A DNA stretch of 20,603 nt from Eggerthellaceae bacterium (GTDB lineage Bacteria; Actinomycetota; Coriobacteriia; Coriobacteriales; Eggerthellaceae). Location: the NCBI GenBank assembly GCA_900754955.1, contig CAAEEV010000192.1, positions 1-20,603 of the forward strand, written 5' to 3'. The notes below the pieces were generated by a model, which saw nothing but the letters and a program-made list of their open reading frames with translations, was not told the DNA's origin and did no database searches. A program made the position numbers and the translations under genes. Positions 7,935 to 19,230 of the stretch are shown in pieces; the first letter of the stretch is position 1, and each line of letters opens with the position of its first letter.

Positions 7935-10085
7935 CTACGAGCGACGGCTCGACCCGTAGGCGGCGTTCTTGCGGTTGCCGTAGGCGCTGCCCTTGCGCGC
8001 GGTGCGCTTGAGATCCTTGAGCACGTCCTCCTCGCTCGATCCCTCTACGCTTGCGCGCAGCTTCACCACCTGATCGCGCAGGCGGGCGGCTTCCTCGAAG
8101 TTCATGTCGCGCGATGCGGCGGCCATATCGTCCTCCATCGACGAGATGATGCGCAGCACCTCCTCGCGCGAGAGTTCGGCAAGCTCCTTGTTGACCTGCT
8201 CGGCGGTGGTTCCCTCGACGTCCTCGGTGATGTAACCCATGATGTCGTTGATGGCCTTGCGGATCGTCTGCGGCTCGATGCCGTGCTCCTCGTTGTAGGC
8301 CATCTGGATCTCGCGACGCCGGCGCGTCTCGTCGATGGCGCGCTTCATCGAGTCGGTGATCTTGTCGGCGTACATGATCACCTGGCCCGAGACGTTGCGC
8401 GCCGCGCGGCCGATCGTCTGGATGAGGGAGCGGTGGTTGCGCAGGAAGCCCTCCTTGTCGGCATCGAGGATGGCCACGAGCGACACCTCGGGCAAGTCGA
8501 GGCCCTCGCGCAGCAGGTTGATGCCGACGAGCACGTCGAACTCGCCGCGGCGCAGGTCGCGCAGGATCTCCACGCGTTCGAGCGTGCCGATGTCGGAGTG
8601 CATGTAGCGGGCGCGTACGCCCTGGTCGAGCAGGTGGTCGGTCAGATCCTCCGCCATCTTCTTGGTCAGTGTGGTGATGAGCACGCGCTCGTCGCGCGCG
8701 GCGCGTTCCTTCGCCTCGTCGATGATGTCATCGATCTGGCTCGCACTCGTGCGCACGATGATATCGGGATCGAGCAGGCCCGTGGGGCGGATGATCTGCT
8801 CGACCTGCTGCTGCGAAACCTTCTCCTCGTAGTCGCCCGGGGTGGCCGACACGTAGATGAACTGCGGAACGCGCTCCTCGAACTCGTCGAAGCGCAACGG
8901 GCGGTTGTCGAGACAGCTCGGCAGGCGAAACCCGTGCTCGGCAAGGGTGATCTTGCGGGAGCGGTCGCCCTCGTGCATGCCGCGGATCTGAGGCACCGTC
9001 ACGTGGCTCTCGTCGATGATGCAGAGGAAGTCCTTGGGGAAGTAGTCGATGAGCGTATAGGGCGGCTCGCCGGGGTCGCGTCCATCGAGGTGGCGCGAGT
9101 AGTTCTCGATGCCGCTGCAGAACCCCATCGTCTCGAGCATTTCGAGATCGTAGTTCGTGCGCATCTCGAGACGCTGCGCTTCGAGCAGCTTGCCTTCCGC
9201 CTTGAACTGCTGGAGGCGCTCGCGCAGCTCGTCGCGGATGGTGACGAGCGCGTGATCGAGTTTCGGCTTGGCGGTGACGTAGTGCGAGGCGGGCCAGATG
9301 GGCAGCGCCTCGTAGTCGTTGACGATCTCGCCGGTGACGTGGTCGACCTCGGCGATGCGCTCGATCTCGTCGCCCCAGAACTCGATGCGGATGGGATTGT
9401 CGGCGTAGGGCGGGAACACGTCGAGGGCGTCGCCGCGCACGCGGAACGTGCCGCGCTTGAGCTCGTAGTCGTTGCGGTCGTACTGGATGTCGATGAGCTC
9501 GTGGATGATGTCGTCGCGGTCGGCTTCCTTCTGCTTGTCGACGAACACGGCGAGGCCGGCGTAGTCCATGGGGCTGCCGATGCCGTAGATGCAGCTCACC
9601 GACGCCACAACGATGACGTCGCGTCGGGAGAGCAGGGCGCTCGTGGCGGCGTGGCGTAGCTTCTCGACCTCCTCGTTGATGGAGGCGTCCTTCTCGATGA
9701 AGGTGTCGGACGAGGGCACGTACGCCTCGGGCTGGTAGTAGTCGTAGTAGCTGACGAAGTACACCACGGCGTTGTCGGGGAAGAACTCTTTGAGCTCAGC
9801 GGCGAGCTGTGCGGCGAGGGTCTTGTTGGGCGCGAGCACGAGCGTGGGCTTCTGCACGGCCTCGATCGTCTTCGCCATGGTGAAGGTCTTGCCCGATCCG
9901 GTGACGCCGAGCAGCGTCTGGTAGCGCAGGCCCTCTTCAACGCCGCGAGCGAGCGCGGCGATGGCCTGGGGCTGATCGCCAGCGGGCTCATAGGGCGACA
10001 CGACCTTGAGCGGTGTGTTGGACAGGCGCACCTCGGGTAGCTTGCCTGCCATCTCGATGCCCTCGATGTTGGAAAGATGTGCCAT
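7935..10085 (-). CDS. uvrB: Excinuclease ABC subunit B
   Basis: The 716-residue DNA-damage recognition helicase of nucleotide excision repair is loaded by UvrA and recruits UvrC. Walker A GVTGSGKT is at residues 60-67, and the beta-hairpin [17 protein letters not shown] (about 113-129) clamps the damaged strand. CIIDESH (Walker B), the helicase motif QTIGRAARN, and a C-terminal UVR helix pair with [18 protein letters not shown] follow. It is about 40 residues longer than E. coli UvrB, mostly in a basic tail after the UVR motif. The start is ATG 10085, chosen because GAGGAGG lies 6 bases upstream on the minus strand; an ATG 12 codons earlier has no such site and lies downstream of the predicted -10 by only a few bases. 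Confidence 0.98.
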
Positions 10086-14212: not shown

Positions 14213-14497
14213 GTTGAGGCGAAGATCAAGCCATCACGAGCACTCACAGAGAGCGGGCGTAGCTGAGATTCCCGCAGGAACGCTGGATGGTAAATGGATC
14301 GCCGAGGGAAAGGGGAAAGGCCGCAGTTCGCTGCATCGCAGGGAACGGGCTGAGTATCTGGACCGTGAGCCCGCGTTAGAGGCAAGGCGTGTGATAGCAC
14401 GTCGCAGAGGGGGTTCGCTCATGCGAACCAATTAAAGGTGGCACCGCAGATCTTTTAAGACCTGTCCTTTAATCCAAAGGACAGGTCTTTTTTGTTT
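14213..14497 (+). promoter_or_regulatory. T-box leader, tRNA-Trp specific
   Basis: This RNA leader senses uncharged tRNA and controls read-through. Stem I closes with GGCGA (14218-14222)/TCGCC (14299-14303) and continues with GCCATC (14230-14235)/GATGGT (14286-14291). The AGAGAG motif is at 14248-14253 and a GCGGG/CCCGC distal stem at 14253-14275. The specifier loop 3' side (14292-14298) reads AAATGGA, giving UGG (Trp) followed by A; AUG is the other reading. A GGTTCGC/GCGAACC hairpin (stem III) precedes the T-box AAAGGTGGCACCGC (14434-14447). The bulge is UGGC, whose last base pairs with G73, the tRNA-Trp discriminator, and not with A73 of tRNA-Met. The antiterminator helix TTAAAGG (14432-14438)/CCTTTAA (14466-14472) excludes the terminator. 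Confidence 0.93.
14457..14497 (+). terminator. T-box-controlled terminator (Trp leader)
   Basis: AAGACCTGTCCTTT (14457-14470) pairs with AAAGGACAGGTCTT (14476-14489): 14 bp, a 5-base loop, then TTTTGTTTT. Its left arm contains the sequence used by the antiterminator, the expected mutually exclusive switch. Confidence 0.95.
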
Positions 14498-14622: not shown

Positions 14623-15198
14623 ATGACCGAACTCAACACCGCAGCAGCACGCAAGCGCATCGTCGCCGAGCGCGAGAGGGAGGGCCTCTGCGTTCGCGAC
14701 CTCATCCTGGTCGCCGTCCTGCTGGCAGCAGGCGCCGTGCTCAAGCTCACCGTCTCGAGCTTTCTGAGCTTCGGCGGCATGAAACCCAACTTCATCATCG
14801 CCATGTACTGCCTCGCCATCATCCTCGTGCGGCCCAAGCTCGCCCAGGCGATCGCGATCGGCCTCATCGCCGGGCTCATCTGCCAGATCCCGATGCTCGC
14901 GGCAACGCCCTACGTCAACATTCCCTCCGAGGTACTCGGCGCGCTCGCCTGCGGCCTGCTCATTCGCATCCCGCTGAAGATCGGCGGCAAGCTCGACCTG
15001 AACCCGCTCGTGACCACCTTCCTCTCGACCGTCGTCTCGGGCTACACGTTCGCGATCATCGTCGGCGTGGTGCTCAACGGCCTGAGCCTTCCCGTGACGC
15101 TCGTTACCTACGCCGTCATGGTGTTCGGCACGGCGACGATCAACTGCATCCTGGTGGCGGTGCTTGCGATGCCGCTGCGCCGCGTGCTCGAGCGTTAG
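14623..15198 (+). CDS. ECF transporter S component, TrpP-like (tryptophan)
   Basis: The 191-residue membrane protein has a charged N-terminal segment (1-25) and about five to six hydrophobic helices. Residues 28-60 contain the pattern GAVLKLTVSSF...GGMKPNF, which resembles B. subtilis TrpP, where GGMKPD sits after the first helix. S components bind the substrate and are coupled by EcfT to the ATPases. Tryptophan as substrate is supported by this resemblance and, independently, by the tRNA-Trp T-box in front of the operon. The start is ATG 14623, with GAGGA and AAGGA just upstream. The ATPase and T genes follow directly, so this is a self-contained (group I-like) module. Confidence 0.85.
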   Translation: MTELNTAAARKRIVAEREREGLCVRDLILVAVLLAAGAVLKLTVSSFLSFGGMKPNFIIAMYCLAIILVRPKLAQAIAIGLIAGLICQIPMLAATPYVNIPSEVLGALACGLLIRIPLKIGGKLDLNPLVTTFLSTVVSGYTFAIIVGVVLNGLSLPVTLVTYAVMVFGTATINCILVAVLAMPLRRVLER

Positions 15199-15207
15199 GA
15201 GTTACCC

Positions 15208-16050
15208 GTGATCGAGGTACGGAATTTCAGCTTCCGGTATCGCGGGGCGTCGGCGCCGGCGGTGCACGACGTGAGCCTGAGCATCCCCGAGGGCTCGTTC
15301 GTGGGCGTTACGGGTGCAGCGGGGTCGGGCAAGTCGACGCTCACGTACGCGCTCAACGGCATCGTTCCGCATTGTTACCGAGGTGACTTCTTCGGATCGG
15401 TGCTCATCGACGGGTGCGACACCGTGGAGACGAGCCTGACCGACATCTCGCGCATCGTGGGAAGCGTCTGCCAGGACATCGACAGCCAGATGGTGTCGTC
15501 GGTGGTCGAGGACGAGGTGCTTTTCGGGCTGGAGAACTTCGGGGTGCCGCGTGCCGAGATCGAGGGGCGCCTTACGGGAGCGCTCGAGGCGATGGGCATT
15601 GCCGATTTGCGCTGTCGTTCGATCGACAGCCTCTCGGGCGGCCAGAAGCAGAAGGTGGCGATCGCGTCGATCCTCGCGCTCGAGCCGCGCGTGCTCGTGC
15701 TCGACGAGCCCACGGCTGAGCTCGACCCCGCCTCGTCGGAGGCGGTGTTCGCCCTGTTGGACCGCTATGCGCGTGAGAAGAAGTGTACGATTGTGGTGGT
15801 CGAGCAGAAGATCGCCCTGCTGGCGGAGTACGCCGATCTGCTCGTGGTGATGGAGGACGGCGCGGTGCGCTTCGCCGATGCGCCCGAGGCGGTGCTGGCC
15901 CATGCGGCCGAGCTTTACGAGATCGGTGTGAACTGCCCGCGTTCGACGAGCCTCGTGAACCGGCTGCGCTCCTGCGGGCTGTACCGGGGACGCGCGGTGC
16001 GCGACGTGGAGGGCGCAGTTGCTGCATGCAGGGAGGTGCTGGCATCATGA
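15208..16050 (+). CDS. ECF transporter ATPase A1, switch His replaced by Gln
   Basis: The 280-residue ABC ATPase energises the ECF module from the cytoplasm. Walker A GAAGSGKS is at residues 36-43, the Q-loop Q89 in SVCQDIDSQ, the intact signature LSGGQ (142-146), and Walker B VLVLDE (162-167) followed by the D-loop. Where the family has the switch His (VTHD), this protein reads VVEQKI with Q200 (codon CAG 15805-15807). The residues after about 235 form the C-terminal helical segment that contacts the partner ATPase. GTG 15208 follows AGGAG at 6 bases, 9 bases after the S-component stop. Its stop overlaps the next start (ATGA). Which subunit corresponds to EcfA or EcfA' is assigned here by gene order only. 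Confidence 0.93.
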   Translation: MIEVRNFSFRYRGASAPAVHDVSLSIPEGSFVGVTGAAGSGKSTLTYALNGIVPHCYRGDFFGSVLIDGCDTVETSLTDISRIVGSVCQDIDSQMVSSVVEDEVLFGLENFGVPRAEIEGRLTGALEAMGIADLRCRSIDSLSGGQKQKVAIASILALEPRVLVLDEPTAELDPASSEAVFALLDRYAREKKCTIVVVEQKIALLAEYADLLVVMEDGAVRFADAPEAVLAHAAELYEIGVNCPRSTSLVNRLRSCGLYRGRAVRDVEGAVAACREVLAS

Positions 16051-16925
16051 TCGAATTCGCCAACGTGAGCGCATCGTACGACGACGGGCGCACGGTGCTC
16101 GACCAGGTGAGCTTCCGCATCGAGGACGGCGCGTTCGTGGCGTTCGTGGGATCGAACGGCGCGGGCAAGTCGACGACGATGCGGCTTGTGAACGGCTTGC
16201 TCAAGCCAACGGCGGGCGAGGTGCTCATCGACGGTGCCTCGACGCGCGATCTCAAGACGAGCGAACTCGCACGGCGCGTGGGTTTTCTCTTCCAGAACCC
16301 CGACCGCCAGATCTGCTGCAACACGGTACGCGAGGAGCTCATGTTCGGCTTCGTCGCGCAGGGTCGGGCCGATGCGGAGGCGGAGCGCGCAGTCGATGCC
16401 GTCATCGAGCGGTTCGGCTTCGATGCGCAGGCTGAGCCCTACCTGCTCAATCGCGGAACGCGCCAGCTGCTCGCCCTCGCGTCGGTTGTGGTGCTCGATC
16501 CGCCCGTGCTCGTGCTCGACGAGCCGACGACGGGCCTCGACTTCCGCGAGTGCCGCACGGTGATGGAGGCGGTGAGCGAGATGAACGCGCACGGCGCCAC
16601 GGTGATCATGGTGTGCCACGACATGGAGGTGGTGGGAGACTACGCGCGCCGCGTGATCGCGATGGCGCAGGGGCGCGTGGTGGCCGACGGTCCCACGTTC
16701 GAGGTGCTGCGCGACCCGGCGGTGCGCACGCGCGCCTGCCTGCGCGCGCCGCAGGTGACCGAGGTGTCGATGCAACTTGTGCTGGACGACCCCGCGCTCG
16801 CCTTCACCGCGGTGGCGCAGGCCAACACGCTCGACGAGATGCAGGAGGCGATCGCGGATGTGTGCCGGCGGCGCGCAGCGGAGCGTCCTGTGTCGCACGC
16901 CGTCTGCCAGGAGGTGGCACGATGA
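16047..16925 (+). CDS. ECF transporter ATPase A2, degenerate signature motif
   Basis: The 292-residue ABC ATPase pairs with the preceding one. Walker A GSNGAGKS is at residues 35-42, Q-loop Q83 (LFQNPDRQ), Walker B VLVLDE (154-159) and switch H191 (VCHDME) are all canonical. The signature is not: the position of LSGGQ reads LNRGT (134-138, followed by RQLLALA), codons 16446-16460. A C-terminal extension of about 50 residues (from about 235) follows the ATPase fold. ATG 16047 overlaps the upstream stop by 4 bases, behind GGGAGG at about 10 bases. Its stop overlaps the EcfT start in the same way, so A1, A2 and T are translationally coupled. Confidence 0.93.
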   Translation: MIEFANVSASYDDGRTVLDQVSFRIEDGAFVAFVGSNGAGKSTTMRLVNGLLKPTAGEVLIDGASTRDLKTSELARRVGFLFQNPDRQICCNTVREELMFGFVAQGRADAEAERAVDAVIERFGFDAQAEPYLLNRGTRQLLALASVVVLDPPVLVLDEPTTGLDFRECRTVMEAVSEMNAHGATVIMVCHDMEVVGDYARRVIAMAQGRVVADGPTFEVLRDPAVRTRACLRAPQVTEVSMQLVLDDPALAFTAVAQANTLDEMQEAIADVCRRRAAERPVSHAVCQEVAR

Positions 16926-17689
16926 GAAAGTTCCTCGAATACGTTCCCGGCACGAGCTTCATCCATCGCATGAACCCCGTGGCGAAGCTCGCCTGCGCGC
17001 TGCTTATCTCCGTCGCGTGCTTCTGTACGACGAATTTGGCGTTCATCGCCGCGATCATCGTGATCGACGCGGCTTTGGCGGCGAGCTGCGGAATGGTGCG
17101 CGAAGCGCTCGGCCTGGCGCGTGCCGTGGCGGCATTCTCGGTGCTGCTTGCGCTCATCGCCCTGCTCACCACGCCGTCGGGTGCGGTGCTCGTCGAGTTG
17201 CCGTGGGGATACGTGGGCACGGGCAGCCTCATGGCGGCGCTGCTCATCGTCATGCGCCTCGTTGCGTGCGCGGTGCCGCTCTTCCTTGTCATGTACGTGA
17301 CGAAACTCACCGATCTGGCGAATGCGATGGTGAAGATCGTCCGCGTGCCGTACCGCTACGCGTTCACCTTCACCTCGGCCGTGCACTTCATCCCCGTGTT
17401 CATGAACGACATGGCGGGCATCATGGAGGCGCAGACGGCGCGCGGCGTGCAGTTCGACGGCGGCATCGTGCGGCGCATCCGCCTCATGGTTCCGCTGTGC
17501 GTGCCGCTGCTCGTGTCGTCGGTGCGCAAAACCAACTCCGCCGCCATCGCCGCCGAGGTGCGCGGGTTCAACATCCGTACGCGCGAGAGCGGCTACAAGG
17601 AGTATCCCTTCGCGCGGATCGACGTTGCGGCGCTCGCGTTCAGTGTGCTGCTCGTTGCGGCGGCGGTTGCGCTGTCACTGATCGGGTAG
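16922..17689 (+). CDS. ECF transporter T component (EcfT)
   Basis: The 255-residue membrane protein links the S component to the two ATPases. It opens with SFIHRMNPVAKL (12-23), the N-terminal family motif, and has about five to six hydrophobic helices, with the last near 234-254. The two coupling-helix motifs that dock on the ATPases are visible as AQTARGVQFD (ARG at 173-175) and AAEVRGFN (RG at 214-215). ATG 16922 overlaps the A2 stop (ATGA). It is the last gene of the tryptophan ECF operon; no clear terminator follows, only a GC-rich intergenic stretch with hairpin potential. Confidence 0.94.
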   Translation: MRKFLEYVPGTSFIHRMNPVAKLACALLISVACFCTTNLAFIAAIIVIDAALAASCGMVREALGLARAVAAFSVLLALIALLTTPSGAVLVELPWGYVGTGSLMAALLIVMRLVACAVPLFLVMYVTKLTDLANAMVKIVRVPYRYAFTFTSAVHFIPVFMNDMAGIMEAQTARGVQFDGGIVRRIRLMVPLCVPLLVSSVRKTNSAAIAAEVRGFNIRTRESGYKEYPFARIDVAALAFSVLLVAAAVALSLIG

Positions 17690-18096
17690 GCTCGCCTGAC
17701 GCTGTCCGAAGCCTGCGCGTTGTTCGTCTGTAGCTCGCGCGGGCAACATCGCGTCGCATTCGGGCGGCATCGCGGCGCGCCTGGGCGGCAAGGCGCGCAC
17801 CGCCCGCATCCCGCGGTGCCCGCCGCCCGCAAGTCTCATCCCGCGGTGCCCGCCGCCCGCCACCTGCATCGCGCCGCGCTCGTCCGCCGACTCGTGTTTT
17901 TTCAGCTGGAGGACTTGATCGGAAGAGGGTATTTCGGCGATGATGGGGAATGCTTGTTCGGATGCGGGGCCTCATTTCCCCTCATCGCATCCCGAATACG
18001 CGTGTCGGAGGCGTCTGCGGGCGCGCCGGCATCTGCACGTGTTGCGCACAATTTCGCGGCACGCGCACGCTATGTTGGGCAACGAAAGGCTGTCTT
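17690..18096. other. Gene-free GC-rich stretch between ecfT and the coiled-coil gene
   Basis: No frame here gives a convincing protein or ribosome-binding site. It holds a GCGCGCC (17775-17781)/GGCGCGC (17792-17798) hairpin, the 30-bp-period repeat described separately, and a T6 run (17896-17901) in CGTGTTTTTTCAG with no strong stem beside it. A -10-like TATGTT (18071-18076) lies shortly before the next gene, with no good -35. Confidence 0.5.
17807..17860. repeat. Two-copy 24-bp direct repeat, C3/G3-tract rich
   Basis: The 24-base unit occurs at 17807-17830 and again, identical, at 17837-17860, a 30-base period with AAGTCT between. Each copy contains the palindrome CCGCGG. Together with the flanking CCC at 17803-17805, the region carries seven CCC tracts, that is seven GGG tracts on the minus strand. 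Confidence 0.9.
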
Positions 18097-19230
18097 TTGA
18101 CGCACGCACATACAGCTGGCGAGAGGATCCTCGCGTTCGCGATGGCGCTCCTGCTCGCCCTGAGCACCATGGGCGCTCCTGCGGCGGCGTGGGCCGACGA
18201 GGTCGACGATGCCGAAGCCGCCGTGGCCGATGCGCAGGCGGTTCTCAGCTCGGCTCAGGCCTCGCTTGACGAGATCACGGCCGAGTACGAGACGCTTGCG
18301 AGCGAGATTGATGAGCTCCAGGCGCAGATCGACGAGGCTTCGGCGGAGGTCATGAAGGCGCAGGAGAGCATGCTCGCCGGACGCGAGTCGCTCGGCGACA
18401 TCGCACGCGGTGAGTACCGCAGCGATTCGGCCGTCAGCATGCTGTCGCTGCTGCTCGAGTCGAGCTCCTTCGAGGAGCTCATGCAGAACATGGAATACGT
18501 CGGTCACATCATGGACTACCAGACCGAGCAGATCGAGGAGCAGGAGCAGCGCTGCGCTCACTTCGAGGAGGTTTCGACCGACCTGAGCGCGAAGAAGGAC
18601 GAGCAGGAGCAGCTGCTCGGCGAGCTCGCGGACAAGAAGGCCGAGGCGGAGCGCGTCGTGTCGAACGCGGCTTCGAGCCTCTCGGGCGCACAGGCCGAGT
18701 ACGAGTCGCAGCTCGCCGCGCTCCAGGCGCAGGCCGCGCAGTTCGAGCAGCAGGCGCAAACCGGAGACGGCCCTGCCATCGACGCGGATGCCAATACGGT
18801 CGATCGCGAGGAGGCGGTCTCGGGTAACACGCCCGTCACGCCGAACCCCGATCCCGACCCGCCGGCGAGTTCGGGCGGCTCGGGTGGGTCGTCCTCCACG
18901 TCGGGCTGGCTTACCGGATCGGCGTCGGCCTACGGCGGGTCGAGCGACCCCTACACCCCGAACCCGGGCACCACGGCCACGGGCGCGGTGTGCGACGACA
19001 ACTCGATGGGCGTGGCTATTCCCATGTCGATGCCCAACTACCGCTCGTATTTCGGCCGCACCGTGGAGATCTCCTACGGCGGGCGCACGGTGTACGCGGT
19101 GGTGAACGACTGCGGCGGCCTGCTCGGTGGCGCGCGCGTGCTTGACCTGCAGCCTGGCGTGTTCAAGGCGCTCGGCTTCAACACGTGCCAGGAGTGGGGC
19201 GTTCGCACGGTGAGCTACCGCTTCCTGTAG
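18097..19230 (+). CDS. Secreted coiled-coil protein with C-terminal RlpA/3D-like barrel domain
   Basis: The 377-residue product has a signal peptide (hydrophobic core AFAMALLLALSTMGAPAAA, cut probably after AWA at 33), a long coiled coil (about 36-222), a low-complexity Pro/Gly/Ser linker (about 243-270), and a C-terminal domain (271-377). The coiled coil includes SMLSLLLESSSFEELMQNME (114-133), as in the N-terminal domains of PcsB/CwlO-type hydrolases that dock on FtsEX. The C-terminal domain, with TGSASAYG, VVNDCGG (D338) and ARVLDLQPGVFKALG (D350), looks like a double-psi beta-barrel of the RlpA/3D lytic transglycosylase type. It may cleave or bind peptidoglycan; activity is inferred. The start is TTG 18097, behind AAAGG; no ATG gives both a site and a clean signal peptide. 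Confidence 0.8.
   Translation: MTHAHTAGERILAFAMALLLALSTMGAPAAAWADEVDDAEAAVADAQAVLSSAQASLDEITAEYETLASEIDELQAQIDEASAEVMKAQESMLAGRESLGDIARGEYRSDSAVSMLSLLLESSSFEELMQNMEYVGHIMDYQTEQIEEQEQRCAHFEEVSTDLSAKKDEQEQLLGELADKKAEAERVVSNAASSLSGAQAEYESQLAALQAQAAQFEQQAQTGDGPAIDADANTVDREEAVSGNTPVTPNPDPDPPASSGGSGGSSSTSGWLTGSASAYGGSSDPYTPNPGTTATGAVCDDNSMGVAIPMSMPNYRSYFGRTVEISYGGRTVYAVVNDCGGLLGGARVLDLQPGVFKALGFNTCQEWGVRTVSYRFL

Follow-up and report, generated by a model that had tools for sequence, protein, structure and literature searches.

Gene content and predicted substrate of the operon

The window, that is, the whole stretch of 20,603 nucleotides that was analysed, harbours a complete ECF-type importer gene set, in which an S component, two EcfA ATPases and an EcfT are encoded together, in the order T-box leader, S, A1, A2 and T. 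The S component (14623..15198, + strand; 191 aa) is a TrpP-like membrane protein, putatively tryptophan-binding, as judged from orthologue matches. The two EcfA-type ATPases, A1 (15208..16050, +; 280 aa) and A2 (16047..16925, +; 292 aa), gave TIGR04520/04521 as their best profile matches, both under the equivalog cut-offs (226.1 versus 315 bits and 206.5 versus 330), and the T component (EcfT/CbiQ family; 16922..17689, +) matched PF02361 at 86.5 bits. The stop of A1 and the start of A2 (ATG at 16047) overlap as ATGA, and so do the stop of A2 and the start of T. Directly 3′ of the operon (17950-19230, +) lies a PcsB-like coiled-coil protein (26.4 bits versus a cut-off of 27), a secreted cell-wall protein by its look, while Pfam matches between 218 and 13973 include DXP synthase, an ammonium transporter, an S1-domain protein, a tRNA thiouridylase type, UvrB, a PIN domain, SMC_N (RecF/RecN type) and a polysaccharide deacetylase.

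Upstream of S, a T-box leader (RF00230; 14205..14472, +) was identified at 65.1 bits (E 8.2e-14 in a search of a 701-base stretch). As this score is under the Rfam gathering score of 93, a default search of the window gave no hit; at that threshold no T-box was found in 11 related loci either. A specifier-like triplet UGG (Trp; 14295-14297, +) is aligned within the leader at what we take to be the specifier position of the T-box model, and an intrinsic-terminator-like hairpin plus T run (14457..14496, +) was recognized by eye after the antiterminator. When an E-value threshold was used instead, a leader with UGG at the equivalent place 5′ of S was found in 8 of the 10 related loci searched (L001, L002, L004, L005, L007, L024, L027 and L031), all with scores below the gathering score; L010 and L016 gave no match. 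At L001 a second T-box leader with a different specifier region (9637-9964; 57.8 bits) was located 3′ of the operon.

The likeness of the S component to the TrpP family (PF17099) consists in three orthologous S components, those of L010, L027 and L031, which score above the curated cut-off (33.8, 45.6 and 43.0 bits, respectively, versus 27.2), whereas that of the window misses this profile and has no Pfam match. Because of the UGG in the T-box-like leaders and the PF17099 matches of the orthologous S components, we conclude that the operon probably encodes a dedicated tryptophan ECF importer. Other TrpP proteins would use the shared ECF module.

Motifs of A1 and A2 in the window

A1 carries a Walker A (GAAGSGKST), a Q-loop Gln89, a Walker B (LDEPT) with Glu167, an intact signature (LSGGQ, residues 142-146; 15631..15645, +) and a switch (VVVEQKIALL) in which Gln200 (codon CAG; 15805..15807, +) occupies the position of the switch His. 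A2 carries a Walker A (GSNGAGKST), a Q-loop Gln83, LDEPT with Glu159 and a switch (VMVCHDMEVV) with His191 (codon CAC; 16617..16619, +), and its signature is LNRGT (residues 134-138; 16446..16460, +), in which Leu at position one and Gly at position four are kept. These assignments, which had been made in the original prediction, were borne out by translation and by alignment: A1 Q200 shares a column with A2 H191 in the multiple alignment, and LSGGQ lines up with LNRGT in one block. Misalignment, named in that prediction as what would overturn the motif calls, fails as an objection, with shared alignment columns and, by eye, neither another His in A1 190-210 nor another signature-like stretch in A2 125-150.

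The same motifs recur among the homologues listed. For A2 (120 listed of 5865 found), LNRGT was present in 119 and LNRGA in one; for A1 (120 listed of 5732 found), EQK was present in 115 and AQK in one by pattern, and the four that the pattern missed also have EQK. The best of five predicted models of A2 has a mean pLDDT of 89.3 (two of the five are poor, at 50.7 and 47.0), and in a re-examination of the hits that Foldseek itself had listed it matched structures of CbiO and EcfA2 over ~270 residues, with an EcfA fold that includes the C-terminal domain. In this model the signature helix begins at residue 136 and H191 comes after a strand; the model shows only that the A2 fold is predicted to be normal.

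In an ABC dimer each ATP site is shared between the chains: one supplies its Walker A/B, Q-loop and H-loop, and the partner supplies the signature (PMC7756269). In the ECF module of Lactobacillus delbrueckii, nucleotide on one ATPase engages the signature upon closing (PMC10368641). Because the sites are composite, Q200 and LNRGT would share one of them, hereafter site 1 (the Walker A/B, Q-loop and switch of A1 plus the signature of A2), while site 2 is composed of the Walker and switch half of A2 plus the signature of A1. The prediction that both deviations fall into a single composite site is therefore supported by the dimer geometry. Here ‘degenerate' is a statement about sequence, as A1 in the window keeps its Walker A, Q-loop Gln and catalytic Glu; replacement of the Walker-B Glu, a trait that is frequent, not universal, in degenerate sites, is absent in the window, where E167 is kept.

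Distribution of deviations across 123 ATPase pairs

A first scan of species genomes yielded 80 loci (L001-L080), picked by the peptides LSGGQKQK and VGSVCQD[IV], so that the constancy of LSGGQ in A1 among them is partly due to selection. Within this set L001-L057 are relatives of the operon. All 57 have A1, 55 have an A2 next to it (L013 and L044 do not), and 55 have an S relative 5′ (L042 and L048 do not). As that scan had selected on A1 motifs, pair counts were taken from a motif-neutral search with the T protein as the query (E <= 1e-30). Matches were found in 205 of 396 genomes of the class of the L001 genome, 12 of 391 of the class of a Ruminiclostridium genome, 11 of 247 of the phylum of a Treponema genome, 13 of 120 of the phylum of a Synergistaceae genome and one of 61 of the family of a Gardnerella genome. 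A total of 127 places were examined, consisting of 90 in Coriobacteriia (the 30 best plus 60 chosen, not random) and all 37 others, and 124 of them harbour both A1 and A2 (L084, L109 and L171 do not have both). In 24 of these 124 loci, from several lineages, A1 and A2 are fused as one protein or ORF; L014, L017, L145, L146, L047 and L051 are among the fused loci, and the fusion at L145 carries LNRGT. Collapsing the loci by A2 sequence, with cut A1 sequences re-fetched, resulted in 123 pairs; an S relative lies 5′ of the ATPases in 107 of the 112 that have a complete A1.

At site 1, the A1 switch is Gln in 123/123 pairs and His in none. The A2 signature that would close this site has Ser in 55/123, the third Gly in 1/123, the fourth Gly in 123/123 and Q/E as the fifth residue in 56/123. 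The remainder of the A1 half is largely preserved, with the Walker-B Glu in 120/123, the D-loop in 122/123 and, where readable, the Q-loop Gln in 118/121 and the Walker A in 110/112. Site 2 is nearly invariant: Walker A in 122/123, Q-loop in 123/123, Glu in 123/123 and His in 122/123 on the A2 side, with a complete A1 LSGGQ in 123/123 and the D-loop in 123/123. Deviations in catalytic motifs are thus limited to one composite site in the window and in 122 of the 123 pairs (the exception being L263), in line with the prediction that the opposite site is canonical.

The A2 signatures are of the Asn type in 66/123 pairs (LNRGT in 46, LNRGA in 18 and MNRGA in two), a share that is no frequency in nature as the choice of Coriobacteriia favours high T scores, and Arg-Gly is retained in all 66. 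The other 57 have Ser (55) or Thr or Gly (two) in place of Asn, all with Gln at the A1 switch. The predicted co-occurrence of the two changes therefore held in one direction, as an Asn signature is always accompanied by Gln, but not in the other, as Gln stands without Asn in 57 pairs; Q200 and LNRGT as a coupled pair were rejected on this count. Random single changes, which the original prediction had set against its reading, were not seen: the pairs with Gln alone are ordered on the tree. At 26 positions in A1, A2 and T, the Asn included, candidate compensating substitutions are near-fixed in the Asn-signature group and rare elsewhere. Because some of them flank site 1 (A1 38, 40 and 88; A2 133 and 141) and others flank site 2 (A2 33, 36 and 45), no inference was drawn from them.

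Nested order of the switch and signature changes

In a tree of 110 rows from which signature and switch columns had been removed, all Asn-signature rows fall into one group of 44 (SH-aLRT 100), with L146 (LSRGS) as the sole exception inside it. A larger, concatenated tree, also with motif columns removed, agrees (a group of 65, support 100). Both are quick trees (LG+G4), with several long branches among the outgroups. Within the Asn-signature group, the rows that bear names are Eggerthellaceae, and the row nearest the window is Adlercreutzia (L001; 73% over 802 columns). LSRGE is the signature of Gordonibacter (L024) and of the neighbouring L164 and L161, none of which belongs to the group. 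Since Gln is fixed throughout the clan, the switch Gln would be older than the Asn signature, and the two changes are, as far as the sequences indicate, nested and not simultaneous. By parsimony, the Asn state needs two changes on the tree, which we read as probably a single gain and a reversion to Ser in L146.

Over nine features per site, within-clan parsimony gave 13 changes for site 1 and two for site 2 (one-sided sign test, 0.0037), a test read as descriptive since parsimony steps are not strictly independent. Two of the 13 steps, the Ser of L146 and the third Gly of L263, are toward the canonical letter; L263 also accounts for the D-loop step of site 1 and for both steps of site 2. The switch adds nothing to the 13 because the clan was picked by its switch Gln, unlike the 123-pair set, which was not. 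Within the tryptophan clan, the switch Gln would have come first; after it, Eggerthellaceae would have lost the signature Ser and Synergistota the catalytic Glu.

Exceptions and generic ECF loci

Three Synergistota loci that form one tree group (L265, L266 and L267) have LDNPS as the A1 Walker B (Glu to Asn), a Q-loop Glu and a switch Gln, with the catalytic Glu kept in ADEPT and a THD switch in A2; by these motifs they represent a more decayed version of site 1, in the same A1 half. In Collinsella L022 the Walker A Lys of A1 is changed to Arg, which is the change named for ABCG5/G8 (PMC7756269). The Synergistota locus L263 (the same place as L202) is the only one of the 123 pairs with a deviant A2 half: its A2 has a switch Gln, a Walker A of GGNGAGKSV, a D-loop of AGLGC and a signature of LSGGE, and no S component was detected at this locus. 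As judged from its motifs L263 breaks the one-site rule. Outgroup modules from the motif-selected scan offer hints only: A1 has LDNAT with ENK in L059 and FDQAT with ETK in L066, and A2 has LTKSG in L062, L067 and L078 and MTKSG in L068.

A second, generic EcfT was located in seven related genomes, each of which also has generic EcfA genes. In six of the seven, neither the signatures (LSGGQ or LSGGE) nor the switches of the generic ATPases depart from the canonical state; in the seventh (L210) one generic signature was unmatched by the search pattern. As a wider control, 60 generic EcfT loci were collected from two classes, the 30 top-scoring ones of each; the classes showed generic EcfT matches in 112 of 119 and in 109 of 118 genomes. 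With a core pattern that would miss a very unusual Walker B or signature, these loci contained 79 ATPase cores (none in 4 loci, one in 33 and two in 23), with an [LI]SGGQ signature in 79/79 and a switch His in 77/79; both cores are canonical in 22 of the 23 loci with two. The generic modules L297 and L298 have TQH (Gln then His) at one switch, with LSGGQ intact.

Proposed mechanism and alternative readings

From the observed gene content, motifs, phylogenetic distribution and order of change, together with the sequence signs of tryptophan regulation, we consider it probable that the operon encodes an ECF tryptophan importer whose A1-A2 pair has one ATP-holding degenerate site and one hydrolysing consensus site. 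The confinement of deviations to one shared pocket suggests that only the other pocket hydrolyses ATP. With dimer geometry taken from known ABC and ECF structures, we infer a cycle in which site 1 (Walker A/B, Q-loop and Gln200 of A1, closed by LNRGT of A2) would keep ATP bound with slow or no turnover and would chiefly keep the A1-A2 pair together, while site 2 (Walker A/B and His191 of A2, closed by LSGGQ of A1) would hydrolyse ATP, opening the pair and resetting the T and S subunits, so that about one ATP would be spent per cycle. The relatives with Gln plus a milder signature (57 of 123) may hydrolyse at both sites.

The main counter-argument to an idle site 1 is that A1 retains its catalytic Glu. 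It could be that both sites hydrolyse, with the switch Gln and [S/N]RG[Q/E/T/A] tolerated and the asymmetry cosmetic or rate-tuning only. The retained Walker A and Q-loop of A1, the Walker-B Glu in 120 of 123 A1 and the two generic modules with Gln at one switch and LSGGQ intact are in line with this, as is the ECF module of Lactobacillus delbrueckii, in which either single Glu-to-Gln change abolished ATPase activity and transport (PMC10368641); that no precedent for one-site function in an ECF transporter was found likewise counts against a single working site. We nevertheless regard hydrolysis at both sites as unlikely, as 122 of 123 pairs have their deviations in one site only, where these build up in several lineages, the Glu itself is lost in three Synergistota loci, and the weak site of TAP bears the same two kinds of change (PMC5277011).

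Other readings fit less of the evidence. The generic EcfA genes in the seven related genomes examined would allow pairing of A1 or A2 with a housekeeping EcfA, and either protein might also homodimerise; yet A1 and A2 are adjacent with overlapping start and stop and fused in 24 of 124 T-query loci, and homodimers would place Gln in both sites (A1) or a poor signature in both (A2), which leaves such pairing highly improbable. The stepwise build-up of non-canonical residues might instead reflect neutral decay in a lineage where the operon is losing its function. This is barely plausible for genes that are open in the window and that elsewhere keep Gln in 123 of 123 pairs, Arg-Gly in all 66 Asn-type signatures and a fully conserved signature and catalytic Glu at site 2. 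A misalignment, frameshift or assembly artefact found no support, deserves next to no credence and was rejected, as the motifs recur (single-letter variants apart) in 240 listed homologues and in many separate assemblies. The preferred reading is thus that of one holding and one hydrolysing site.

More broadly, it is conceivable, and offered tentatively, that ECF importers with dedicated modules evolved one-stroke ATP motors more than once, with the same half decaying each time. A dedicated module can work without expelling and exchanging S in each cycle, hence perhaps the repeated decay of the A1 Walker and switch half plus the A2 signature; the motif-selected outgroup modules hint in the same direction.

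Comparison with known systems

The persistence of one weak ATP site in many ABC transporters has been called enigmatic (PMC5277011). Among exporters, degenerate ATP sites are a familiar feature, and the work found on weak sites deals with these transporters, while the ECF case, as far as sequence can define it, would be new here: no description of a degenerate ECF ATP site was found in the literature searched, most subscription papers lying outside that search, and the original prediction had likewise known of no standard description of such asymmetry for ECF modules. The system is a small importer distributed over several phyla, and its tryptophan clan allows the weak site to be read in ordered evolutionary steps, with the generic ECF modules of related genomes (six of seven canonical) as natural controls. 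It could be used to address whether one or two ATP are spent per ECF transport cycle, and whether a module with a single S escapes the S-expulsion step that has been suggested for shared modules.

Compared with the tryptophan module, the sampled generic ECF modules differ in having canonical signatures in 79 of 79 cores and a switch His in 77 of 79, and the group II EcfA-EcfA'-EcfT of L. delbrueckii differs in that both catalytic Glu are required. Degenerate-site ABC transporters likewise combine an altered Walker or H-loop region of one NBD with an altered signature of the other, and according to a review every human degenerate site has an altered NBD2 signature (PMC7756269); they differ in being mostly exporters, and the site of Pdr5, with LNVEQ as its signature, is far more decayed. 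The closest analogue is TAP1/TAP2 (ABCB2/ABCB3), which shows the same two kinds of deviation in one site and a consensus in the other: Gln replaces the switch His in TAP1 and the signature is LAAGQ in TAP2, both in NBS I, where ATPase activity is strongly reduced (PMC5277011). In TAP, ATP stays bound at NBS I and is hydrolysed at the consensus site (PMC12422388); by this analogy, site 1 would hold ATP and site 2 would do the work. TAP differs in being an antigen-peptide exporter with membrane domains of its own, and TAP1 has Asp in place of the catalytic Glu, whereas A1 of the window keeps Glu167.
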